Position numbers and translations under genes: made by a program
Assembly (NCBI RefSeq): GCF_020535405.1
Contig: NZ_CP085036.1
Location: 1,798,001 to 1,862,000, forward strand
DNA: 64,000 nucleotides
Source: Antiquaquibacter oligotrophicus
GTDB lineage: Bacteria; Actinomycetota; Actinomycetes; Actinomycetales; Microbacteriaceae
Reading direction: 5' to 3'
The notes under the pieces: generated by a model
The model's database searches: none
What the model was told of the DNA's origin: nothing
What the model saw: only the letters and a program-made list of their open reading frames with translations
Shown here: positions 16,105 to 58,542 of the stretch, one piece after another
How the letters are laid out: every line of letters starts with the position of its first letter
Numbering within the stretch: position 1 is the stretch's first letter

Positions 16105-19100
16105 GACGCGGCCCGCTCGAGGGTGTTGCGCCCCGGCACGTGCTGGTGCTCGGGTTGCTGGCTGCCGTCAAGGCTGCGGCGCTCGTCGGCATCGCCCAGG
16201 CGGTCGCGAGCGGGGTTGTCGCGGTCATCGCGGGCACCGACACGTGGCGCGACGCCGTGGTGCTCGGCATCGTGAGCGGGCTTGTGCGCGCCGCCGTCAC
16301 GTGGGCGAGCACAAGTTACGCCACCCGTGCGGCGATCGGTGCCAAGGAGGCGCTCCGGAGCGACCTCGCGCGCCGGCTGCTCGGCACGGGGGAAGCCCGG
16401 GTCGGCTCGAGCGCGATCGTCGGCAGCGTAGGCCTCGACGCGCTCGACACCTACTACCGCACGGCCTTGCCCGCCACAATCACGGCGGCGGTCGTGCCGC
16501 TTCTCATCGGTGCTCGCATCCTGTTCGCCGACCCCGTGAGCGCCATCATCATCGTGCTCACCGTGCCACTCGTGCCCGTGTTCATGGTGCTCGTCGGCCT
16601 GCACTCGAAGGAACGGGCGGATGCCGCATCCGCCAGCCTGCAGCGGTTGAGCGACAACCTCGCGGAGCTCGCGCGTGGCCTCCCCGTGCTCGTCGGGCTC
16701 GGCAGAGTGCGGGAACAATCGGAGGCGCTGCGCGAGGTCTCGGAGCGCAACCGCGCCGCGACGATGAGCACACTCCGGTCGGCGTTCCTGTCATCGCTAG
16801 TGCTCGAACTCATCGCCACGATCTCGGTTGCCGTTGTCGCCGTATTTGTGGGGGTGCGGCTCGTAGGCGGGGACCTGCCGCTCGAGGTGGGCCTCCTCGC
16901 GCTGGTGCTCGCGCCGGAATGCTTCACACCCTTCCGCGAGGTCGGTGCCGCGTTCCACTCGTCGCAGGACGGTCTCGCGGCGATGCGTCGCGCACGCGAA
17001 GTGATCGATGCGCCCGCCGCTGGCGATGACCGTCGCCCTGGGCGTGACCTCGAGGTGCGTGACCTCGTGGTCACACGCGACGACAGGTCGGCGCCGATCG
17101 TTGACGGACTAACCTTTCGTGTTCCCCGCGGCACCATTGCCGCAGTGGAGGGCGCGAGTGGTGCGGGCAAGTCAACGATCCTGGGTGTGCTCGCGGGGGT
17201 GGTGCCCTGGCAGGGCGGCACCGTGAGCGGGGTGCCAGCGGGTTTGGTGGCGTGGGTGCCGCAGCATCCGCACACCGTCGCAGCGACGGTTCGCGACGAG
17301 GTGCGGCTGTACGCCGACACCGATGAGTCGACGGATGCCGCGCTCGAGCAGCTCGCGTTGACGGGTATCGCTGCCGACGACCCTCAGCGCGTGAGTCCCG
17401 GGGAACTGCGGCGCCTTGCCGTCGCCCGCGCGCTCGTGAGGGTTGATGCTGGCGCCACCGTGGTGCTGTTGGACGAACCGACGGCGCACCTCGACGCTGC
17501 CAGCGCCGCGCTCGTGGAGGGCGCCATCGAGGGGCTTCGCGGCAGGGCGACCGTGGTGCTCGCCTCGCACGAGGCCGGGGTCGCTTCCCTTGCCGACCAG
17601 CGCATCGTGCTCACGCGCCAGGGCGGACTGCGCGACGACGAGTCGGGCGGAGCCCAGCGCGAGAAGTACGAGCAGAGCGAATCGGCGGCACGCACAAGCC
17701 GTGGCGCGCTCGCGGAACTCGGCGCGTTCCTGCGCCCGACCGCGTGGCGTATGGTCGCCGCGGTGCTCCTGGGGTCGGCGGCCGCGCTCGCCGCTGTATC
17801 CCTCACCGCCGTGAGCGGGTGGCTCATCGTTCGCGCGAGCGAGCAACCGCCCATCATGTACCTGCTCGTCGCGATTGTCGGGGTGCGGTTCTTCGGAATC
17901 GCGCGTGCCGGCCTGCGCTATGCCGAACGGCTCGCGACCCACGACGGAGTGCTCGGCTCGGTCACCGACCTGCGGTCGCGGCTGTGGAACGGACTCGCCG
18001 CCCGCGGTCTCGGCTCACGGGTGCTCACCACGGGTGGCGCAGCCCTCGACTACCTCGTGGGGGCGGCCGATCGTGTGCGCGATCTTGTGCCCCGCGTTGT
18101 GCTCCCGCCCGCGGTGGCCATCGTCACGGGGATCGCGGCTCTCGTCGCCGTCGGCCTCCTGCACTCCGCGGCAGTCCCGGTGCTGCTCGCCGGCATCGTG
18201 GTGAGCCTCGTTGTCGGGCCCGCGGTGGCCGTACTCGCAGATCGTCGGGCGTCGGTGGGGGCGGCCGCGGTGCGCACGTCGGTACTTCGCGAATTCGCGG
18301 CGATGGTCGCGGCATCCGGAGATCTCAGCGCCAACGGTGTCGGGGACCGGATGGTCGACCGGCTGGTTGCCCTCGACGCGCGTGCGAGCAGACTGGCGCG
18401 CGGTACCGCGTGGGCCCTGGGCCTCGGAAACGCGGTTGTTGTTCTCGCGGGTGTCGTCACGGCCATGCTCATGCTGCCGGCGACCGTGGATGCCGTCGCT
18501 GCTGGAACCCTTCCCCCCGCGGTTGTCGCCGTGCTCGTGCTGCTGCCGCTCGCCCTCGTCGAGCCGCTCACGGGTCTCGTCGACGCCGTGCAGCAGTGGC
18601 CGGCGCTCGCCGCAGCGCTGCGGCGGGTGCACGACGTCGCGGCGACGGATGCACCGCGCCGGGGCACACGAGAAGTGACACGTATCGACGAGCTCGAGCT
18701 CGACGGACTTGCCGCCACCTGGGCGGGTGCCGAACGCCCCGCGTTCCACGACCTGACCGCGCGCGTGACGCGCGGGGAATGGCTTGTGGTTGAGGGGCCG
18801 TCGGGGGCGGGCAAGTCGACGCTTCTCGCGACCCTCCTCGGAGACGTCCCCGTGACCGCTGGCAGGGTTCTGCTCGATGGAGTCGATGCTCGGGAGTTCG
18901 CGCCGGATGCCCTCCGCCGTCGCATGGCGTGGTGCCCGCAGGAGGCGCACCTCTTCGACTCGACGATCCGCGGCAATCTCCTCCTGGCCCGCGGCCGCGA
19001 GAATCGCCCCAGTGACGTCGACCTGGAGCTTGTGCTCATCAGAGTTGGTCTCGGTGACCTCCTCGAGACGCTCGAGAACGGGCTCGACACCCGGGTCGGG

Positions 19101-32639: not shown

Positions 32640-32669
32640 TTCAACCGCGATGTTGGCAGGAGGACGGCC

Positions 32670-33278
32670 GTGGATCGTCGCATCTCTTCCCAGTCGATGG
32701 ACCGTGCTCTCGGCTGGACTGGGCTCCTGGTCGCGTTAGCACTCGCGGTGCCTGGCTCCGCCGTCATCGCTCTCCGGGTTGCGTCGCAGTATCGCGAATC
32801 GACTGCCAAGGGTGATGCTGCACTCGCAACTGTGCTAGTCGTCGTCGGTGGTCTCATTGCTATCGCAAGTCTCGTGGCGGCAGGGATCCTGATGTGGCGG
32901 CATACCCTCGTCCGCCGCGTCGCGAGACGAACCGACGGACTCAGCTACTTCGGGACAAATGTTGGAGAATTTGCGTCGAGTGTCGAAGCTCTGGGTGTGA
33001 CATGGGGGCACGGCCGCCCCTACGTGCTCAACGTCAATGAAGCAGGGGTCTCGTTATGGAGAGGCAGTCGTGGCGAGAGAGACCCGGCATTGATCTTGTG
33101 GTGGGATGACATGAGAAGCGTCGAGTTCTCCACCCTGCGAGCGATCGGGAAGCCATTCTTCGAGGTTGGCTTCGGTGCGAAGCAGGGCATCCTCAAGGTC
33201 GCCCTGGACCGGCAATCTCTGCCGAAACGGCGAATTCCGGACTTCGTCGACGCGCTTCAGACATTGCACCAGGTGTAA
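32670..33278 (+). CDS. Unknown membrane protein 1 of a tandem set (2 TM + C-terminal domain)
   Basis: A 202-residue protein not recognised. Two transmembrane segments (about residues 15-37 and 50-75) precede a cytoplasmic domain of about 110 residues with alternating strands. The core reads VNEAGVSLWRGSRG, LILWWDDMRSVEF and FFEVGFGAKQ, recalling PH-like/bPH membrane proteins. The core pattern G-hydrophobic-S-hydrophobic-W-x-G and W-D-x-hydrophobic-R-x-V-E is shared with the next gene, so the two are probably paralogues. It starts 30 bp after menA with GTG (Shine-Dalgarno GGAGGA upstream). First of four co-directional genes of similar build. Confidence 0.75.
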   Translation: MDRRISSQSMDRALGWTGLLVALALAVPGSAVIALRVASQYRESTAKGDAALATVLVVVGGLIAIASLVAAGILMWRHTLVRRVARRTDGLSYFGTNVGEFASSVEALGVTWGHGRPYVLNVNEAGVSLWRGSRGERDPALILWWDDMRSVEFSTLRAIGKPFFEVGFGAKQGILKVALDRQSLPKRRIPDFVDALQTLHQV

Positions 33279-33358
33279 ACCGCTGGGGGGTGGTCGTCCC
33301 CTACAGTGACCAGTGCACGCGACTCGAGACCTTCTCGGCTGGTACCCGAAGGCGGGAT

Positions 33359-34006
33359 ATGAATTACGGGAAATGGATAGCAGGAGGCCTGGCGCTCTTT
33401 CTCGTGGGGCGAGCGCTCATCGAGATCGTTCGGATCGCAAATACCTCTAAAGAGGATCCCGGCCTGGCGATTTCCATGTCCGTCAACACCGTCCTCATCC
33501 TTGGCGCCTTCGCGCTTGTTGTTTGGCTGTCCGAGTCGAATGTGGGGGCCGACGCTCGGAAGCGGCGTCCACATCTGGAAGAGGTATCCGAGGGCGACGC
33601 CGTCTTCGAGATTTGGAAGGACAAGCAGATCATCCTCGCGTTTCATCGCCTTTTTCCCGCGCTGCCGACTGGATTCGATAGAAACGGGTTCCTCGGCAGA
33701 GCTGGCCTTGTCTCGGTCGCGGTGTCTTCCCAAGGCTTAAGTTTTTGGACAGGAAGCGTCGCGCTGGAGAACTTCGGTCACATTCCTTGGGATGCAGTTC
33801 GTGATGTCGAGGTCAGGGAGCACGCCGGAATTACGAGATCCTGGCAGGTGCTCGATGTGAGCTTCGATCCCGACCATTTCCCGATTGCGTCACTTTCCGG
33901 CGCGAAACTGTATTGGCTTCGTCGAGGCAAGTTTTTCCCAATGCGCGACGCCGAAGGCCGCCAGGTTGCAGATGAGATCAACAAGCGCAGATTCACCCGC
34001 GCCTGA
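33359..34006 (+). CDS. Unknown membrane protein 2 of a tandem set (2 TM + C-terminal domain)
   Basis: A 215-residue protein, paralogous in layout to its upstream neighbour. Two hydrophobic segments lie near residues 5-23 and 35-57. A strand-rich domain follows, with VAVSSQGLSFWTGSVALE, then IPWDAVRDVEVREHAG and WQVLDVSFDPDHF. The start ATG at 33359 is preferred because AAGGCGGG precedes it; an in-frame GTG at 33290 lacks a site. An 80-bp gap separates it from gene 1 and 89 bp from gene 3. The C-terminal domain may be a lipid- or protein-binding PH-like fold, which is inference only. Function unknown. Confidence 0.72.
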   Translation: MNYGKWIAGGLALFLVGRALIEIVRIANTSKEDPGLAISMSVNTVLILGAFALVVWLSESNVGADARKRRPHLEEVSEGDAVFEIWKDKQIILAFHRLFPALPTGFDRNGFLGRAGLVSVAVSSQGLSFWTGSVALENFGHIPWDAVRDVEVREHAGITRSWQVLDVSFDPDHFPIASLSGAKLYWLRRGKFFPMRDAEGRQVADEINKRRFTRA

Positions 34007-34095
34007 ACTGCGCCAAGCGTGTGCATACGGCTACGCTCGTCGGGTTGCAGGGGTTGAACGGGAACGCACGGAGACGACTTGAGGGGGCGCGAACA

Positions 34096-34764
34096 GTGGA
34101 GCAAAAGAGCTCGGCGCGCACGGTACTCAGCGTCTTCTTCGTCCTGACATCCGTCGCCTCCATCGGGTCCCTCGTTGTCTCCAACGCTGTGAGAGCATCC
34201 GACGCGTCGGAATCTTTGCTCACCTCCGCATCGTGGCTCCTCGGGGGCCTCGCGGTAGCGCTAGCTCTGATCTTGCTCCTCAGCAACGCGAATCGTCAGC
34301 GTAGGAATGCGCTCGCGGCCGAGTTCCCGAACGCGATCATCTGGAACGCGGCGAGCAGCCCAGGCCTCGCTCAGGCGATCTCGCAGATGAAGGGCACCCC
34401 AACCGTTCAGGCCGACCTGCCCAACTTGCTCACCGTCGTTGCGGATGCCGACGAGGTGCGTGTGTTCGGGGGCCATCCCAAGCGTCTGCGGCTCGAACTT
34501 GTTCTGCCCTCCGGGAGCATCGTCGGTCTTCGCCACGGAAAGATCCTCTCCGGCCCCGTGTCGTTCAACGGTGTCGAACTCGAGACGCTGCTCGATGATG
34601 CTACGAGCGTCCGCGTCCCACTCGTCGTTACTGGCGGCGGTTTGGGCGGGGTCTATGCCGCGTCCGCTGAAAAGATCGCCAACCTGGCCGCATCGCTCCA
34701 TAACCTCCTGCCGAGGCTGCAGCAGAGCGCAGAGCCCACGGATGCTGCGGGAGGCGAGTCGTGA
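34096..34764 (+). CDS. Unknown membrane protein 3 of a tandem set (2 TM + C-terminal domain)
   Basis: A 222-residue protein with two transmembrane segments (about residues 10-32 and 45-65). The cytoplasmic part starts RRNALAAEFPNAIIWNAAS and continues with LPNLLTVVADADEVRVFGG and a Gly-rich strand region LVVTGGGLGGVY. The pieces PNA-hydrophobic-hydrophobic and VVADADxVRV recur in the next gene, so genes 3 and 4 are paralogues. The start GTG at 34096 is chosen because GAGGGGG (34081-34087) sits 8 bp upstream; the longer frame to 34021 has no such site. Function unknown. Confidence 0.7.
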   Translation: MEQKSSARTVLSVFFVLTSVASIGSLVVSNAVRASDASESLLTSASWLLGGLAVALALILLLSNANRQRRNALAAEFPNAIIWNAASSPGLAQAISQMKGTPTVQADLPNLLTVVADADEVRVFGGHPKRLRLELVLPSGSIVGLRHGKILSGPVSFNGVELETLLDDATSVRVPLVVTGGGLGGVYAASAEKIANLAASLHNLLPRLQQSAEPTDAAGGES

Positions 34765-34816
34765 GCGCACGGCTTTCTGCGCGAGATAGCGTTCCAGGGC
34801 CCTTGTGGGGAAACCA

Positions 34817-35485
34817 ATGAGCCAGAGATACCCGAAGTTCACGCGTTTCGGAGACCCAGCGGTTGAACGGTGGATGACGCACGAGGGCGAGGCGCGCCTT
34901 GCCCGCGTCGCGCCAGTATTGATCCCCGCGATCGCCTTCGTGCTCGCGATCTTCATGGCGATCCTTCTGGGCCAGGGCAACAGTTCGCAGCGGGTTGGGA
35001 CGGCCGTGGCCCTCGGCCTGTATGGGACTGCACTCGCCGTCCTCTTCATTGTGTGGCGCTTGTCGTGGACGGACGCACGGACGCAAAGACGAATCATCCG
35101 CCGCAGTCAACCAAACGCAGTCGTGGTGACTGTGCGCCTACCGTCCTGGACACCCGCTGCCACCGACATCGCTCTGCCGCTGTACCTGCCGTACCCCAAG
35201 CGGAGGGCTTTGGTGGTGGCCGACGCAGACGCGGTGCGTGTTCTCCCCGTGCGGGCAACATCCACGCCAGCGGTCAGCTTCGAGTGGCACGACCTTGAGA
35301 TGCTGACTGTCGACTACGTGGAAGTGGGTAAAGCGTGGTCCGGCCTCGCCCTGGTTGATACGCGCACAGGTCACGCGCTCGTCGCCCAGCCCTTCGTCAG
35401 CCTCTGGTGGGGGATGATGCCGGGTTACAACACCGACGCGGCCGCTGCGGTGAATGCACTTGACCGCGCGAACCCTGATCGCTGA
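34817..35485 (+). CDS. Unknown membrane protein 4 of a tandem set (2 TM + C-terminal domain)
   Basis: A 222-residue protein, last of the tandem set. Two helices (about residues 30-51 and 60-82) follow a short cytoplasmic N-terminus. Then come RRIIRRSQPNAVVVTVRLPSW and LVVADADAVRVLPV, matching gene 3, and a final segment LVAQPFVSLWWGMMPGYNTDAA. The ATG at 34817 is chosen over an in-frame GTG at 34805 because the GTGGGG there serves as its ribosome-binding site. A large hairpin (35493-35565) follows directly and may end the transcript. Function unknown. Confidence 0.72.
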   Translation: MSQRYPKFTRFGDPAVERWMTHEGEARLARVAPVLIPAIAFVLAIFMAILLGQGNSSQRVGTAVALGLYGTALAVLFIVWRLSWTDARTQRRIIRRSQPNAVVVTVRLPSWTPAATDIALPLYLPYPKRRALVVADADAVRVLPVRATSTPAVSFEWHDLEMLTVDYVEVGKAWSGLALVDTRTGHALVAQPFVSLWWGMMPGYNTDAAAAVNALDRANPDR

Positions 35486-35492
35486 CCTGCTT

Positions 35493-35565
35493 CGCTGAGG
35501 TTTGGCGCCCGCACGCCCGTCTGCACCGGTGTGAACCGGCGTGCGCACACCAAAAAACCTCAGCG
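35493..35565. terminator. Hairpin after the tandem membrane-protein genes
   Basis: CGCTGAGGTTT (35493-35503) pairs with AAACCTCAGCG (35555-35565), and GCGCACGCC-like inner arms extend the stem around an inner CACCGGTG palindrome. The stem is followed by no U tract on the plus strand, as is usual in high-GC Actinobacteria. It lies 7 bp after the stop of membrane protein 4. Confidence 0.55.
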
Positions 35566-35677
35566 CGGGCACCGTCGCTGAGCGACGTCCGCCCCTACTG
35601 GTCCTCCACGGTCGCGTCGACGATAACCCGATAATCGGATGCTCATGGACGGTCCCGACGGAATAGTTGAGCTCAAT

Positions 35678-35705
35678 TTGGTTACGAGGTGCGCTCACCT
35701 ATAGG
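35678..35705 (+). promoter_or_regulatory. Candidate promoter of the RHS gene
   Basis: TTGGTT (35678-35683) and TATAGG (35700-35705) are spaced by 16 bp in a local AT-richer stretch. If used, transcription would start near 35711. That is downstream of the GTG at 35689 and supports the TTG at 35737 as the translation start. Confidence 0.4.
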
Positions 35706-35736
35706 TTTGCAGAGTTGTCTACCCGGGGGTATTTCC

Positions 35737-38700
35737 TTGCGTCGCTCGCTGTCACTTTCTGCCGTCGCCATCTCGTCCGCGCTGGCCTTGACACTCGGAG
35801 TGCTAGTGCCTATTGCGCCAGCAGAGGCAACCGAAACCGCCGAGGCGACGATTGCCGTCCCGCCCCTTGAGTCCGCGCCGTTGGAGGCGCCTGAACTCTC
35901 GACGCCCCAGGGTGAATTCATTCCAGAGCTCGAAGCCCGGGAGCCGCTCGCGCGCGATTCGACCAAACCGCCTGCCGAGTTTGAGTCATCACTCGATGAG
36001 TTTGATCCTTCCACTGCGACGGAAGTGGAGCGAGACGAATTCACCACGACGTACGAAGGGGCCGACGGAAGTTATGTGAGCGCGGTGAGCGCGGTTCCGA
36101 CCAGCGCCGAGGTGGATGGCGAGTGGGTGAACATTGAAACTCACGTTGAGCTGGCTGCTGACGGGACTCGCCAGCAAGACGCGCACCCGCTGAATCCTGA
36201 GTTTGGCGCTTTCGCCGACGAGGAAGGTGCTTTCGCCGTTTCTAATGATGACCATCGCGTGGAGTTCACACTCGATGGTGCGGCCTCGAGTCCCTTCTCG
36301 AGCGTGACCACCCCGAGGGCTCCTCCCTCCAACGAGGTCACGTACCGAGAGGTGTTCGAGGGCGTGGATCTCACGTACGAAATCGATGACGCAGGTGTGA
36401 AAGAAACGCTCGTCCTCAATGAGGCCCCGGAGCGCGGAGAGTCCTCCTGGACCTGGAGTGTCAGTACGGACGGATTGGAGATGCGCGCAGAAACCGACGG
36501 GCGCATTGTCTTCGTGGACACGGAAGGTGTTGTCCAATTCCACGTCCCAGCGCCTCTTGTCTGGGATTCGTCTGGCATTGAGGGAGAGCGAGAGCCGGCG
36601 TCGGAGAACTTGAGGGCCACGATTTCCGGATCCGGCAGCAGTTGGTCGCTCACCTTGTCAGCCAATGAGGAGTGGCTCGCGTCTGCCGATCGTGAGTACC
36701 CAGTCTTTGTGGACCCCACTATCTACAAGTACGACGCGGCGTATTACTCCTACAAGTCGAACGGAGTGACGTCCAACTCCGCGTACATCGGCAACACTCG
36801 TGAGAGCAACCAGAACGTCTACTGGCGCACGATTGTGCGATACGACTTTCCAGATCTGGCTGGAAAACAGTTCCTCGGTGGTGCGGCCGAAATCGCCTAC
36901 GGCGGCAACGGGACGACGGGTACCTATGGAGGGAGTCTCTGGGGAGCGAGCAACTTTTGCTATTCCTGTAATCAAGGTTTGCTCGGCTCGTTCAGTTTGG
37001 GGACAAGCTCAGCCGTAGTGTCTGGTACTGCCCTCAACGAGAAGTTCGCCGAGATCGGAAGGACGGGCCTTTCCAGCTACCACCTGATGTGGGTGGGGGA
37101 CGAAGCGGGCGCATACTCCTTCAAGGAGGTGGCGACCCGGTTGTTCATCGAGTGGAAGGACAAGCCCTCGGTCGTTCACAACACACCATCCAGCGGGGCA
37201 GCAACCTCTCCCCATCCCAAGTTCACCGTAACGGGATCGGTGAACTATGACATTCCCCTGTCGTATGCGTTCAAGGTCGAGGAACTTGTCAACGGCTCGT
37301 GGGTGGTGGTCCACCAGTCGCCCTGGCAGACGAAGTCGACGCTCCAAGTGAACAACCTCACACCCAACAAGACCCATCGTTGGCAGGCCAGAGTCAAGGA
37401 CGGTTTGGACGGATACTTGGGCACGTCCACAAAGAGTGCTTGGACTAGCACCTGGACCTTCACGACAAGCCTTCCCGACGTGAGTCCGCCTGAGATCGAC
37501 GCCTATCCGGATGACGAATCGGTGCTGTCCGACTCGACCCCGAAACTGAGCATCTGGCTCTGGAATCCGCCACAGAGGGCTGACCAGTATCAGTTCCACA
37601 TTGCGACGGGTTCGGACGGGCTCTCCGGCATGATTGTGCAATCGGGCTGGCTTAACGCACCGCACCCTTCTTCAAGTTCCACGATGACCTGGACACCGCC
37701 CGCAGGCTCGCTCGTAAACGGTGGCGTTTACACCTGGGGGGTTTCGTCCCGCAGCGGAAGCGACGTGCGCGATCCCGTCTGGACGAACACTTTCACTGTG
37801 GACACTCGTCTGGGGTCCAGCGGACCGTCGCCTTACGACACCGCTGGACCGGTCACCGTCAACATGGCGAACGGCAACGCTAGCTTCTCCTTCAGCTCAC
37901 CCACGGTCGCGACCGTGGGGGGCGCGATGGGTGTCGCCTTCAACTACAACTCGCAGGAGCAACGGCAGGGGCTTCGGGCAGAGTATTTCGACGCGCTCAA
38001 TCCGGGTCAATCGGCAACCTCGAACTTTGTGTTCACCGATCAAAATGGTCAACCGCGCGAACCGGTGTTGGTCCGTGACGAGACAGTGATCAACGCTGAC
38101 TGGAAGTTCGGCTCGCCGGGGCCTGGGGTGAACTCTAACTACTTCCTCGCCCGCTGGACCGGATTCGTTACCGTGCCTACCACTGGGACCTACCGATTCG
38201 ATGCGGCTCACGATGACGGCGTGCGGATCTGGATCGCGGACGCGAACGGCCAATATCAGTCCATGGTGGATAGGTGGTCTTACGGCACCACCACGCCCAC
38301 CTTCCCCAACAGTATTCAGCTGACTGCCGGGCAACCACGCAAGATCAAAGTTGAGTACCACGAAGTCACTGCGTCGGCGAGCATCGCGCTCTACATCAAG
38401 TACGCGGGCGGCTCGATCTACAAAGTCCCTTCGGACTGGTTGTCTGGATCGCCGCGCATTCTCCCCCAGGGTTGGGGAACGTCCACTCCGATCGCGGGTG
38501 CAGCTACGCCGTACGTTCGAGCGTCCGTGACTGAGGGCTCAGTGTCGATCACGCTCGCCGATGGAAGTAACTTGGCCTTCACGAAGAAGTCCGATGGTGG
38601 TTACGAGCCACCCTTCGGCAGCAAGGCAATCCTCTCGCTTAGCGCAACGAAACGCGTAACTCTCACCGATGAGAGTGGGACCGTTGTGCAGTTCAACGCG

Positions 38701-41700
38701 CAGGGAAATGTCACGTCCGTCACTACACTCGCCGACGCGATGAAGCCGGCTACGCCAGAACTCAGTTACGACTCTTCGGGACGGCCCGCGAAGGTAACCG
38801 ACCCGGTGACTCCTTCGACTGGCCCCGGTAACGGCGGCCAGAAGCGGTCGGTCGATTTCAGCTACTACGGGTCGAGTTCGGTATGCCCGACTGACACCGG
38901 GTATACGCCCGCGCCGGGCATGTTGTGCAAGATCACCTACCCAGGCACGACCGAAGTGACCAAACTCCTTTACAACGCCAACGGACAACTCCAGCGAATC
39001 GTGGATCCGGGCGGAGCGATCACGGATTTCGCGTACACGGGCAAAAATCAGGTCGCGTCGATCCGAACATCCAGCCTTCACGATTGGCTCGCGCGGCCTG
39101 GGTCAGGCGCACGCGACGCCGCGGTAGCTCTGTACTCGATCGCCTACGACGTGGACGGCAGAGTCGTGTCTGTGAAGTCGCCCGCGCCCGATGGAGTGAC
39201 CGCTGCGGATCGTCCAGAGAAGGTGTACGACTACGACTATTACGAGGGCTTCCTGGCGGGATCCTCGACCATGGATGTCGTCGGGGTCGGGAACCCCGGA
39301 ACGACGGGGCATAGTCTGACGACACATTTTGATGACTCGTGGCGGATGACGCGGTCGATCAGCGCGCTAGGGCTCACGACGTGGAAGGAATGGGATCACA
39401 AGGACTTCCTGCTTTCGAGTACTGACAGCCAAGGCCGGAAGACGACTAACATTTACGACGGCGACGACCGCCTAACCGACACCTATGGTCCTGCGCCGAA
39501 GGCGTGTTTCGACGGGGTGACGCGGTTGCCGAAGCCGACGTGCGAGATTGTTCCAGCCCACACGCGTACGGAGTTTGACGACGGGTACAGAGGGCTCCAC
39601 GTTGCTTGGTTCACCAACAAGGACTTGTTGGGCCAACCGAAGAAGTTCACCCTCGGGCTACCCGGTTCCCACAGCGGCCAGATCGAAAGTGATTGGGGGA
39701 CGTCGGCGCCGACCTCGGGTATACCTGCGGATGGATGGTCCCTTCGCATGACCGGGCTCGTGCAATTCGAGGGGGCAGAGGAGTATTCCTTCGCAACATG
39801 GGCAGACGATGGCACGAGAGTCTGGATCAATGACGAGCTTGTGGTTGAGAACTGGAGAGATCAATCCGGGATGTATTCGTCCACAGTTGTTGGGTACCAG
39901 GCCGAGGAGAACGAAATTGCGCGTATCCGGGTCGAGTACTACGACGCAACAGGTACAGCCCAGTTGAGGTTGCGCTGGAAGAAGGGCGCGTCGGGCAGTC
40001 TCGTAACTGTGCCTGGTTCGCGCCTGAGCCCCGGATACGACCTCGCCAACAATGTGACGGTGGAGGATTCCGTCCCGATCAACTCAGGACTCGACGACTC
40101 CATTGTTCCGGACATCACGACAGCTCTGGACTACGAGCATCCGTGGTTGGGCGCAGTGACGTCATCCACGATCGATCCGGGGGGACTTGCTCTCGAAACG
40201 AAGCAAAAGTTCGAGTCGCCGGAGTCGTCGTCGGGTTGGATGCGCCGCACCTCAAGGATGCTTCCCGGGCCTGTCGCCGCCGGGCTCTCCGCGAGTTCGG
40301 TGGGGGCGACCAAGTATGAGTACCATCCGGACGGAGGTACCGCATCCAGCTCCCTCGGCCTCAGCCAAACCACGTGTGGGGTGCCGACGAGCACGCGCCA
40401 GGCCGGCCTGCTGAAGAAGACGATTGAGCCAAGCCCGACCGGGTCGGTCACGGACGGTCGTACGACTCTCTATCTGTATGACTCATGGGGGCGCGTGGCT
40501 GGCACGAAGACCGCGAGCGATCCCTGGGCTTGCACCTATTGGGATGCCCGTGGGCGGATAACGTCGGCGACAATCCCGGCGTATAACGGCGAGCCCGCGA
40601 GGACCGTCACGTACACCTACGGGTTCAATGACACGGGTGCCATCAGTACGGTGGCCGACGGCTCCGTTACAGGATCGCCGAATGGTGGCACGATCACGAC
40701 GCAAACCGATGTCGCCGGACGCACCGTGACCTACACGGACGTATGGGGAACGGTCACCGTTCCCACCTATGAAGAGCACACCGGGTGGGTCGAGGAGGTC
40801 ACGACGACCCCCGCCAGCGGGGCTGCGGGTACGCAGTTCTTCGAGTACGACGCCGACGGCAAGGTCACGGAGATCCGTCACACGAACACCGCTTTGGGTC
40901 TCGACGACACGACGATTGCGACGCCCACATACAGCGCAAGTCAGGTCCTGGCATCCGTCACCTACCTGAATGGCACCTCCTTGACCGATATCGCCCCAAG
41001 CCCTTCGGGAGCCGCCGTTTCCATGAAATGGAACTTCCAGGAGATCGGCGAAGTTGTGCACCCGGCCGAGGCGGTCTACGAGTTCGGCTTCGAGTCGGGA
41101 ACCGACTCGTGGCTGTGGTACCCGTACTCACATTCGGGTAGCGCGACAGCGCATGCGGGTTCTGGGTCGTCGGTTCTTGCTCAGACAGGCAATTACCCCG
41201 CTGGCGCCCTTCGCACCTTTACCGATTTGGTCGAGGGCGCTGAGTACACGCTGAGCGGCTGGGCGGCGTCGACTCAGGACGCCACGGTCGAGACGACCCT
41301 CACCGTCGCGGCGGATGGGATCAGCAACACGCCGCACGAGTTGGAGCCAGCCGATGGCAGCACCGTCACGTGGGTACCTGTCTCCCACACGTTTACCGCT
41401 ACGGGTACCAGTCAGCAGGTTTCGTTCAGTGCCTACGACGCGGTGACCAACTCGGCCAACGTGCTCTTGGACGACATTGCGCTTACTCGCTCCTCGTGGG
41501 TAGAGGAGGGTGGCGTAGCCGCCGACGCCGACGGCTCCGAGAGCGTCCGGGACCAGGTCGTGCGTTCTCAGTCGGGGCGGATCGTCAAGAACACTCTCAC
41601 CGATCGCGGCCTGACGGAGACGTCGAACTACCGATTCGACGGCGCAGGACGACTAACCGAAGCCTCGATCCCGGGTCACGTCTTGGGCTACTCGTATGCG

Positions 41701-43059
41701 GACACCACGGGTTGCACGAACAACTATGCGGGCAGGTCGGGCAACCGCACCGGCTTCACGGATACCGTGGGCGGCGTGGTGGTAACGGATGTTTCCTACT
41801 GCTACGACTACGCGGACCGTCTGGTCTCCACCAACCCCGATACTGCACAGCCCGGGGCGAATCCGGTGCTTGGCCAGGCAATGTCCACGACAGCGCCGCT
41901 GGCGAACATCGCATACGACTCGCACGGCAACACGACCAAACTGGCGAACCAGACGATGGTTTACGACGCTGCGAACCGTCACATGAAGACGACTGTCATC
42001 GACGGTTCTGTCACGACCACGATCACCTATCAGCGTGATGTGACGGGACGCATTGTGTCCCGGACCACTTCGGATGGCACCACAACGTCCACGGTGCAGT
42101 ATCTGTACTCCTCCAGCGGCCTGTTCGCGGTGAAGTCGGACTCGACGATGCAGTACAGCCTCTCCCTGCCCGGTGGGGTGAACGTTACCGCGACGGGTTC
42201 TGCCGAGCAGTCCTGGTCGTACCCGAACGTCCACGGCGACGTCATCCTCACAGCGGACCACAGCGGTCTCCGGATTGGTGCTCGCTTCAAGTTCGACCCC
42301 TTCGGTCAGCCCATCGACGCGAACGGCGCCATCGGAACGACGGCAGCGGATGACACGGTGCCCGACAACCTTGAAGGCGACGCCGACCACGCTTGGGTGG
42401 GGCAGCACCAAAAGCTATACGAACACGCGGGATCGATCGCTTCGATCGAGATGGGCGTGCGCGTCTACGTCGCCGCGCTTGGCCGATTCTTGTCGGTCGA
42501 TCCCGTAGAGGGGGGTGTGACCAACGCCTACGACTACCCCGCCGATCCAGTGAATGGGCTTGATCTCACCGGCGAGAAATGCACTAGCCACTGCGTGAAG
42601 AAGGTCTCAAAAGCAAAGGGCGCGAAGGAATCGAAGAAGTTGAACCCTGTGTCCACCGCCCCCGTCGGGCCGCAAGACTGGGGGCAGGAATACGGCATCG
42701 AAACCACAGATTGGCATTGGGACGAGGATAGCGGGAGATGGAAGCTCTCAATCGAAGTCTTGCGGCCGGACGAGCCGGCGAGCTGGACGGACTGGTCGGC
42801 ATACGATTCGCAACTCGATGAAATCAGCGTCCCGAAGAATCAATGGGAGGCCATCATCGAAATGTACGGACCTGACATGAACACACGCTCGATGTTCCAG
42901 CAGTATCAATGTCATCAAGTAGGTGACTTCACCGGATTTACCGGAGAAACTTGGGATTTGGAGTATTCCCGACCGGACACCCTATGGTGGCCCGTGACCG
43001 GATTTTCGCCGCGAGACCGTTTCCCGTACTTTACGATGGGGTGTAGCTGGAGTGGCTAA
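35737..43059 (+). CDS. Secreted RHS/YD-repeat polymorphic-toxin-like protein with PA14 domains
   Basis: A 2440-residue exported protein of the RHS/WapA type. The signal peptide is [20 protein letters not shown] ending near PAEA. The N-terminal WapA-like part ends in YPVFVDPT; an Fn3-like region follows (nt 37170-37480). PA14-like domain 1 lies at nt 37966-38460 ([20 protein letters not shown]) and PA14-like domain 2 at nt 39580-40060 ([13 protein letters not shown]). YD repeats run from about nt 38760 to 42510 ([49 protein letters not shown]). A galactose-binding-like insert is at nt 41050-41490. The RHS core closes with [20 protein letters not shown] and [11 protein letters not shown] (to nt 42577). 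The last 160 residues are a distinct tip. Start TTG at 35737 (GGGGG 7 bp upstream) is preferred over GTG at 35689, which would bury the signal peptide. Known relatives (WapA) kill neighbouring cells; toxicity here is inferred. Confidence 0.88.
42578..43059 (+). other. C-terminal tip of the RHS protein, DUF2599-like candidate effector
   Basis: The region of the RHS protein after the core motif [11 protein letters not shown]. It opens with a Lys-rich linker with two Cys (CTSHC). A Trp-rich domain follows, containing [26 protein letters not shown] and a final TMGCSW. The spacing of Q-x-x-CH, T-W-x-L-E, R-P and a terminal C recalls the DUF2599 family of secreted actinobacterial proteins (recognition by pattern, not by search). 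The two Cys of the domain could form a disulfide. In RHS toxins this position holds the variable toxic domain. Confidence 0.5.
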
Positions 43060-43525
43060 CTTAGATAGCAGTGGCAAGCTCTTGGTTGCGACTGGTGCCG
43101 CGGTCGTTCTTGTCCTGGCATATGCGTACCTTGCGATTCCCCTGGATGTCGGGCTTGGGTTCGTCGGCGGGTACGGGGCGATTGGGGCGATTGGTGGCGG
43201 CGGTTTACTCCTCCTACCATGGCTCGTGGCGACTGCGTTTCTCGCCTATCTCGCTGCGAGGAGAGTAGATGAGATCCGTTCCTCCGCTCGCACCGTTTGG
43301 TACACGATCCTCGTCGTTTCACTAACGCTCATCTGGTCGTACCCCATGGTGATCGCTACGATGTACGGCGCCGTCGACTCGCTCGATGTCGAGTTGTTCG
43401 ACTACTCACTTGCGCTCGGGGTCGTGTACTGGGCAGCCGTGGTGATTAGTCTCGTAGCCGCGCCGGTGTCGGCACTAAACCTGTTCCTCGCCCGGGCGCA
43501 AAGAACGCGCACGTACAAACGTTAG
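43052..43525 (+). CDS. Four-helix membrane protein, candidate immunity protein for the RHS tip
   Basis: A 157-residue integral membrane protein with hydrophobic segments at about residues 10-31, 44-68, 82-105 and 121-147, and a short basic tail. No motif was recognised. GTG at 43052 overlaps the last 8 bp of the RHS gene, so translation is coupled. Toxin and immunity genes of polymorphic systems are arranged this way, and membrane immunity proteins usually guard against toxins acting at the membrane or cell wall. Composition is as AT-rich as the RHS gene. The assignment is inference from position. It converges with DUF4229, 53 bp away. Confidence 0.65.
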
Positions 43526-43578
43526 GTACGTCGCTATCGCGGAAAGCTGCCATCAACTGCCCCCCGGAGTTCTCCGCC

Positions 43579-43812
43579 TTACCGATCCTCCACCGACGCG
43601 TCCACGTCGACCGCGGGGGATGCCCGGCGCTCCGCGATGTCGCGGTTCACGGCATCCCGGAGTTTGCCGAAGAAAATGTACGAGACGCAGAAGCCGATGA
43701 CGGCGGCGAGGATCGCGGCGAGCCACCACTCGATTCCCACGAGCATGAGCACCGCGAGGGCTACTGCGAAGACGCCGACGCGCACGAGTGTGTAGGCGAC
43801 CCAGGGTTTCAC
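43579..43812 (-). CDS. DUF4229 small membrane protein
   Basis: A 77-residue protein with two helices (about residues 5-24 and 27-48) and a polar tail ending DVDASVEDR. KPWVAYTLVRVGVFAVALAV and a helix with AAILAAVIGFCVSYIFFGKL match the DUF4229 pattern found beside menaquinone genes in Actinobacteria; its role is unknown. Start GTG at 43812; the long minus-strand reading that continues upstream is an antisense shadow of menD. It is divergent from the PLDc_N gene, 54 bp apart. It marks the point where the conserved men gene order resumes. Confidence 0.8.
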   Translation of the reverse strand: MKPWVAYTLVRVGVFAVALAVLMLVGIEWWLAAILAAVIGFCVSYIFFGKLRDAVNRDIAERRASPAVDVDASVEDR

Positions 43813-58460: not shown

Positions 58461-58542
58461 GGCAAGTTACCCAAGCGGCCAAAGGGATCTGACTGTAAAT
58501 CAGACGTCTCAGACTTCGGGGGTTCGAATCCCTCACTTGCCA
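58461..58542 (+). tRNA. tRNA-Tyr (anticodon GTA)
   Basis: Acceptor arms GGCAAGT (58461-58467) and ACTTGCC (58535-58541) pair perfectly, with discriminator A. The anticodon loop CTGTAAA has GTA at 58495-58497 between stems TCTGA and TCAGA. A long variable arm (class II) and the T-arm GGGGG-TTCGAAT-CCCTC follow. The 3' CCA is not encoded. A strong hairpin follows at once. Confidence 0.96.

Follow-up and report, generated by a model that had tools for sequence, protein, structure and literature searches.

What was inserted into the menaquinone locus of Antiquaquibacter oligotrophicus, and what might the inserted genes do? The window analysed here, a stretch of 64,000 nucleotides from this Microbacteriaceae genome (NZ_CP085036.1, positions 1,798,001 to 1,862,000; coordinates refer to the window unless stated otherwise), holds a gene for a large RHS/YD-repeat protein between menA and the DUF4229-PLDc_N-menD genes, directly followed by a gene for a four-helix membrane protein of 157 amino acids (aa). 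A sequence-only reading had taken this pair for a toxin and its immunity protein. From comparison with related genomes, we consider it likely that the insert is an antibacterial polymorphic-toxin island, in which the C-terminal tip of the RHS protein, a DUF2599 domain, would be the toxin and the four-helix protein its immunity partner.

The RHS island in the menA-menD interval

The gene menA was found in all genomes of the genus (27/27), and in the 26 other than the source genome, all of which were compared, it is followed by DUF4229-PLDc_N-menD within about 10-400 bp (26/26). In the source genome (2.9 Mb, single contig), an insert of ~11 kb (about 32640-43578) that is absent from all 26 others lies between them. 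It comprises four + strand genes without annotation (32670-35485), the RHS gene and the partner gene, and much of it has a G+C content of 0.58-0.63, compared to 0.65-0.72 in the surroundings. The RHS island is an insertion. The position proposed in the sequence-only reading stands in this comparison, which confines the insert to the source genome; its extent had been underestimated, as the insert exceeds the RHS-partner pair by the four additional + strand genes.

The open reading frames (ORFs) of the RHS protein and the 157-aa protein overlap by exactly 8 nt. A 2440-residue RHS protein overlapped by a four-helix membrane protein, as initially described, is borne out by the ORFs and by hydropathy; that length follows from a TTG start (35737) with a GGGGG stretch 7 nt upstream. 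The long ORF matches the RHS repeats of PF05593 with 57.4 bits (cut-off 22) and the RHS core of TIGR03696 with 32.0 bits, just below the cut-off of 32.5, and PF07691 reports two PA14 stretches, the second of them without coordinates. No second RHS match was found in the source genome at E ≤ 0.001, and thus no orphan tips follow the main gene; such tips are not known to be an obligatory feature of RHS/WapA-type polymorphic toxins.

Exchange of tips and partners among related RHS genes

RHS genes (E ≤ 1e-10) are present in 9 of the 27 genomes of the genus, and the relatives G309, G306, G303, and G300 carry shortened RHS copies with differing tips and differing downstream genes. In 171 pairwise alignments of 19 RHS copies, the cores share 55%-98% identity, whereas the tips are alike (E ≤ 1e-3) in 13 pairs, nine of which are among five DUF2599 tips. 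Even the copy with the core closest to that of the window (L099, 80% identity) has a tip and a partner unrelated to the window's. Neither tip nor neighbour is constant among the relatives: the core is kept and tips and partners are swapped, in line with the sequence-only reading, and the 157-aa protein has no clear relative in 298 other genomes of the family. A tip identical in 162/162 residues, with the same partner reading, occurs in two species of the genus (L096, oriented 16530-17386; L101, 4694-5550), suggesting a probable recent exchange of a tip-partner cassette.

The window tip scores 29.1 bits against PF10783 (cut-off 25) when searched alone and 23.1 bits, below the cut-off, inside the whole protein. 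Across 123 aligned DUF2599 sequences, a Gln, a Cys, a His, an Arg, and a later Cys are invariant (123/123), with the first Cys and the His adjacent (Cys-His), and a Glu, a Leu, a Trp, and an Asn are nearly invariant; the window tip holds all five invariant residues. DUF2599-type tips were also found in the RHS proteins L096 (G306), L097 (G303), L105 (G041), L104 (G048) and, more distantly, L106 (G424). The L096 tip has no Pfam match and the L105 tip falls below the cut-off, both being joined to the DUF2599 tips by alignment. The partner is a four-helix protein for the window, L096, L097, and L105 and a lipoprotein for L104, and none was found for L106. A region search for close relatives with the L097 tip returned its own source protein only, and the window tip has no sequence match in the PDB.

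Hydropathy argues for a soluble domain. No 19-residue stretch of the window tip exceeds a Kyte-Doolittle (KD) value of -0.25, and the five DUF2599 tips reach at most 1.08 over 19 residues (KD19), compared to 1.5-3.5 in 10 of the 13 distinct other RHS tips. The DUF2599 tip is probably a soluble domain with one conserved disulfide. As none of the five tips measured has a hydrophobic segment, it is more readily explained as an enzyme or binder acting at the surface than as a pore former. Its predicted structure consists of a beta hairpin, two main helices, and one strand (pLDDT 71.7, pTM 0.70).

Two related RHS tips in L094 (oriented stops 10544 and 6297) contain HExxH-like stretches by eye, and each is followed by a lipoprotein; they are candidate metallopeptidase toxins with lipoprotein immunity.

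Envelope partners and a second carrier of DUF2599

A profile of the five tips has matches in 25 of 398 genomes of the family. Most of the matches remaining beyond the RHS proteins are ~350-residue secreted proteins with a C-terminal DUF2599, often ending in Cys-Asn-Trp, whose shared N-terminal motif reads by eye about as 'WAVDA..VPT.Y.V.G..L.QVVDH..YPVVADP'. This N-terminal part is joined to many other C-termini (39 homologues and 11 further loci); these include some that look like HNH or beta-rich domains and others that are short and hydrophobic, and a small ORF overlaps some of the genes. Judged by these sequence patterns, the YPVVADP-type proteins are a second polymorphic carrier of DUF2599. 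No description of such a carrier in actinobacteria was found in the literature searched. In 197 genomes of the class, searched for the carrier N-terminal part or DUF2599, no new protein among the matches listed spans both.

A partner was counted when an ORF of 60-260 aa on the same strand started between -45 and +45 nt from the stop and had a hydrophobic segment (KD 1.6) or a lipobox. The rule was written after part of the data had been seen and the group labels of the first set were given by eye, so the first count was not blind. Under this rule, envelope partners follow 5/5 RHS-DUF2599 tips and 20/22 secreted DUF2599 proteins, compared to 2/32 lipoprotein-type DUF2599 genes and 4/104 control genes near men loci. 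In Fisher tests, the secreted proteins differ from the lipoprotein-type genes with p = 1.5e-10 and from the controls with p = 2.7e-17, and the RHS tips with p = 4.8e-5 and 1.1e-6, respectively. The lipoprotein-type set comprises 28 of 58 DUF2599 places and five others, of which L058 was not scorable, leaving 32. Left out of the count were L106, L112, L118, L123, and L132, as well as L131 and L140 (contig end), L133-L135 (same loci as L105, L097, and L096), and the L096 tip at 16530 (identical to that of L101). With wider limits, L112, L118, L123 (at -49 nt), and L132 each have an envelope ORF nearby; L118 and L132 are near copies of L117 and L125.

The rule was applied unchanged to held-out loci, namely 25 stretches (26 places) from DUF2599 matches and 18 DUF2599 loci from the class search, with the carrier motif replacing the by-eye labels. 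Here, 10 of 11 genes with a YPVVADP-type region have a partner, as do 11 of the 32 DUF2599 genes that lack this region (p = 0.0014); among the carrier-type genes, L203 and L204 are near copies and L213 was not flagged. With both sets pooled, an envelope partner follows 30/33 secreted DUF2599 proteins and 13/64 other DUF2599 genes, at least 7 of the latter 13 being false. Carrier-type genes missed by the rule are L129, L139, and L213.

The class of the partner follows the phylogeny of the domain. On a tree of 25 DUF2599 domains it changes five times, compared to a mean of 12.5 and a minimum of 8 in shuffles (0/1000 as low). Because the RHS tips group with secreted proteins whose partners have four transmembrane helices (4TM; support 87/87), DUF2599 appears to have passed between carriers together with its partner type; the row of the window sits on a very long branch and its placement is unsure. 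Among the partners, those with one transmembrane helix (1TM) and the lipoproteins form one sequence family, with L104 standing apart, and two 2TM partners (L122, L125) match each other. Profile comparison revealed no link among the 1TM, 2TM, and 4TM groups, and a single homology group for all partners was unsupported by hhalign. The threshold of the partner rule labels two four-helix partners as 3TM. The 157-aa protein has no significant match in Pfam, NCBIfam, or PADLOC; eight weak matches (E 1.9e-4 to 9.8e-4, ~20 bits, frames of 288-695 aa) were read as chance membrane similarity.

Tip swapping, the excess of envelope partners, and a partner class that tracks the tip phylogeny support, at the level of sequence comparison, the toxin-immunity layout of a variable tip and an overlapping small gene that had been recognised in the window. 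The same comparisons support the view that, in two carriers, DUF2599 has the behaviour expected of an exchangeable toxin domain whose candidate immunity proteins are located in the envelope. DUF2599 is spread through actinobacteria and is reported in Pseudomonas. With less confidence than for the island itself, we lean towards a wider interpretation, namely that some DUF2599 domains make up a so far unrecognised superfamily of antibacterial toxins acting outside the cell, with at least two unrelated carriers and several unrelated membrane or lipoprotein immunity families.

Several observations weigh against a toxin-immunity reading of the island or of DUF2599. L106, the sixth of the RHS-DUF2599 tips, lacks an envelope partner, bringing the overall count to 5/6. 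Membrane or lipoprotein partners also follow 8/13 other RHS tips, from which the DUF2599 proteins differ weakly (p 0.05 and 0.15), so having a membrane partner is not by itself a mark of DUF2599. The partner rule also has false positives: among the 11/32 held-out genes, seven partners wrongly flagged by the hydropathy threshold are DeoC-like aldolases (Pfam confirms two, and shared motifs identify the others) and three are doubtful readings by eye (L194, L198, L200), while L210 looks real. Because these false positives lie among genes without the carrier motif, the true held-out contrast is larger than counted, yet the counted contrast is weaker than that of the first set. Furthermore, the window partner could not be linked to the other 4TM partners by hhalign, with 4TM denoting a topology and not a shown family, and the medium-confidence model of the tip has no usable structure match in the PDB (Foldseek, VIA-align).

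The window tip also has a Ser after its last Cys where 122/123 sequences have Asn and an Asp where 111/122 have Arg, and given these substitutions at near-invariant sites the window copy might be altered in activity. The substitutions would also suit an RHS protein that is an adhesin or host-directed, with the small membrane gene as an unrelated neighbour, as would its PA14 domains and long YD repeats, which also occur in adhesins. We regard this explanation as very improbable, since the two genes overlap by 8 nt, such neighbours occur at a background rate of 4/104, and related arrays swap tips together with partners.

A more serious alternative comes from Pseudomonas aeruginosa HvnA, where DUF2599 is reported at the C-terminal end, following an HvnA domain that has the active site for NAD+ hydrolysis (PMC3510237). 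This extra domain and the many DUF2599 proteins without such a partner (2/32 flagged in the lipoprotein-type set) are the reasons why part of the DUF2599 family may be a targeting module. Extended to the island, DUF2599 would be a surface-binding or targeting module instead of a toxin, and the downstream membrane protein an export, anchoring, or processing factor. An export factor should stay with its carrier, whereas the partners fall into several classes without detectable relation that follow the DUF2599 clade. In addition, the DUF2599 tip of the RHS protein occupies the site where other copies hold unrelated tips with partners of their own, making this alternative unlikely.

How the tip may act and its relation to known systems

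If the island encodes a toxin and its immunity protein, the RHS protein would be exported by Sec and would display or release its C-terminal tip, by analogy with WapA and RHS proteins. To judge from where the partners are located, the target of the DUF2599 tip in related bacteria would lie outside their cytoplasmic membrane. As a disulfide-locked soluble domain, the tip would most likely bind or enzymatically attack something at the cell surface, for example a lipid-linked polymer or a precursor of the cell wall, instead of forming a pore. The four-helix protein, translated together with the RHS protein, would protect the producer at its own membrane, and the genes just upstream may partly be spare immunity genes against other RHS tips. 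The effector at the membrane or wall envisaged in the sequence-only reading is narrowed by this model to one acting outside the cytoplasm, probably not by pore formation.

The tip might instead act in the cytoplasm after uptake, with the membrane partner blocking entry. At least three envelope partner types, lipoproteins included, follow the same domain, which speaks against such a role, as do the two invariant Cys kept in DUF2599; paired conserved Cys are common in exported proteins. None of the partners seen is clearly a soluble cytoplasmic protein, but L106 lacks a partner altogether and L129, L139, and L213 are unflagged. Although two-helix immunity proteins have been proposed to prevent uptake (PMC3482391), we consider entry blocking improbable for DUF2599 and prefer a tip acting outside the cytoplasmic membrane.

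As a whole, the island most resembles the RHS toxins of Gram-positive bacteria, and we take Bacillus WapA to be a closest known system of the same kind. WapA-CT1 of Streptococcus suis (PMC12704120) likewise has a Sec-type signal (in the window a putative one, seen by eye), an RHS shell, a variable tip, and a small gene directly downstream, and the likeness extends to the relatives of the window, which carry shortened RHS copies with other tips. The window differs in its DUF2599 tip, its four-helix membrane partner, the PA14 domains in the shell, and its actinobacterial host. TelC-TipC of Streptococcus intermedius, a lipid II phosphatase and its membrane-anchored inhibitor (PMC6193138), combines a toxin outside the membrane with an outward-facing anchored inhibitor, the arrangement that we propose for DUF2599 with a 1TM or lipoprotein partner. 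Unlike the window RHS protein, it depends on export by a type VII secretion system (T7SS), and we liken the two by described action only and claim no family membership. In Staphylococcus aureus, TspA-TsaI and EsxX-ExiCD (PMC9484751, PMC12744356) share multi-helix membrane immunity proteins with the island, and TsaI also tandem immunity genes. TspA and EsxX depolarise membranes, EsxX through a glycine zipper, in contrast to the five DUF2599 tips measured, which have no hydrophobic segment; again, no common family is claimed. Tse5 of P. aeruginosa (PMC10684867) is another envelope-acting tip delivered by an RHS shell, but it relies on a type VI secretion system (T6SS) and forms pores.

In a 2012 comparison (PMC3388012), DUF2599 is listed as one of the 50 Pfam families with the greatest expansion in mycobacteria, and neither a published function nor toxicity data for it were found in the available parts of the literature searched. 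Our results provide a candidate, testable function for this domain of unknown function, part of which is accompanied by partners in the envelope, as would be expected of a toxin. In a published survey, cell-surface immunity proteins are the exception and Imm65 is the only apparent lipoprotein among the immunity proteins (PMC3482391). Because of this rarity, DUF2599, regularly paired with several surface partner families, is a good handle on toxins acting outside the cell. Imm65 and the DUF2599 systems are alike in having a lipoprotein as (candidate) immunity protein, although such partners recur among DUF2599, and the family of the upstream genes considered below consists of membrane proteins.

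Upstream genes, island ends, and further loci

Table 1. Features of the RHS island and its upstream genes, in window coordinates.
Feature	Position	Strand	Details
Upstream gene 1, small membrane protein	32670..33278	+	6 bits against the immunity-like family profile; relation not shown
Upstream gene 2, membrane protein, weak member of RHS-partner family	33290..34006	+	19 bits
Upstream gene 3, candidate orphan immunity gene, membrane segments and soluble domain	34021..34764	+	56 bits
Upstream gene 4, candidate orphan immunity gene, same family as gene 3	34805..35485	+	67.0 bits, E 7.6e-20; itself a search seed
Possible remnant of DUF4229 gene 3' end, candidate insertion junction	35593..35620	-	imperfect direct repeat of 43578-43600, 18/23
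RHS/YD-repeat protein	35689..43059	+	2456 aa from GTG; 2440 aa from TTG at 35737
Putative Sec-type signal peptide of RHS protein	35737..35829	+	hydrophobic N-terminus in translation, by eye
First PA14 domain	38032..38436	+	PF07691, residues 782-916
Second PA14-type region	39559..39972	+	residues 1291-1428; partial NF041776 match far below its cut-off
RHS-associated core	42442..42573	+	TIGR03696, just below its cut-off, residues 2252-2295; conserved in 18 other RHS copies compared
Variable tip, DUF2599, candidate toxin domain	42586..43059	+	157 aa; PF10783 29.1-29.3 bits alone
DUF2599 match with invariant Gln, Cys, His, Arg	42829..42978	+	residues 2381-2430
Four-helix membrane protein, candidate immunity protein	43052..43525	+	157 aa; 8-nt overlap; 4 hydrophobic segments

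The upstream block probably contains spare immunity genes (two or three of its four genes), an assignment that we make with moderate confidence. The profile behind it comprises ten relatives, recruited with gene 4, its relative in G282, and the L094 partner of a hydrophobic RHS tip. Pairwise, the upstream genes matched the L094 partner marginally, and the relationship became clearer once more relatives were added. Family members stand directly behind RHS tips or RHS-like readings in L094, L151, and L160, the latter two readings having hydrophobic ends. The G282 relative does not follow an RHS gene, nor do the members in L146, L152, L153, and L158, and a family-wide association with RHS is not claimed. 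L150, L154, and L156 were assigned to neither group, and L155, L157, and L159 were not used. A polyimmunity locus is described as four or more tandem immunity genes on the same strand, uninterrupted by toxin genes (PMC3482391). The block is similar in its tandem same-strand arrangement of immunity-like genes, with four + strand genes of which two are clear members and one is a weak member of the RHS-partner family.

At the island ends, a search for flanking repeats found a single imperfect one (35593-35620/43578-43600). Its first copy reads VDATVEDQ-stop by eye, compared to VDASVEDR-stop in the DUF4229 gene. A third copy within the RHS gene scores alike, making the junction evidence weak, and the repeat may at best mark the insertion site of the RHS unit. 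No tRNA gene lies at the island ends, the sole one in the window being at 58461, and promoter and terminator counts there are no different from those in shuffles.

In seven loci outside the window (L173, L177, L178, L179, L180, L185, L186), a short secreted DUF2599 gene directly precedes a gene for a DeoC-like aldolase, in most cases overlapping it by 1 nt, a conserved neighbourhood without an envelope partner. Among the YPVVADP-type secreted proteins, P0033 and P0035 have HNH-looking C-termini by eye, P0033 having only a sub-threshold match to DUF2380. The gene in L161 overlaps by 4 nt with that of a small soluble protein, presumably of the DUF2283 type. The source genome itself encodes a YPVVADP-type protein (L162, C1:2337431-2338111) whose C-terminus differs and looks beta-rich and whose gene is overlapped by an ORF of 88 aa; the two are possibly another toxin-immunity pair.

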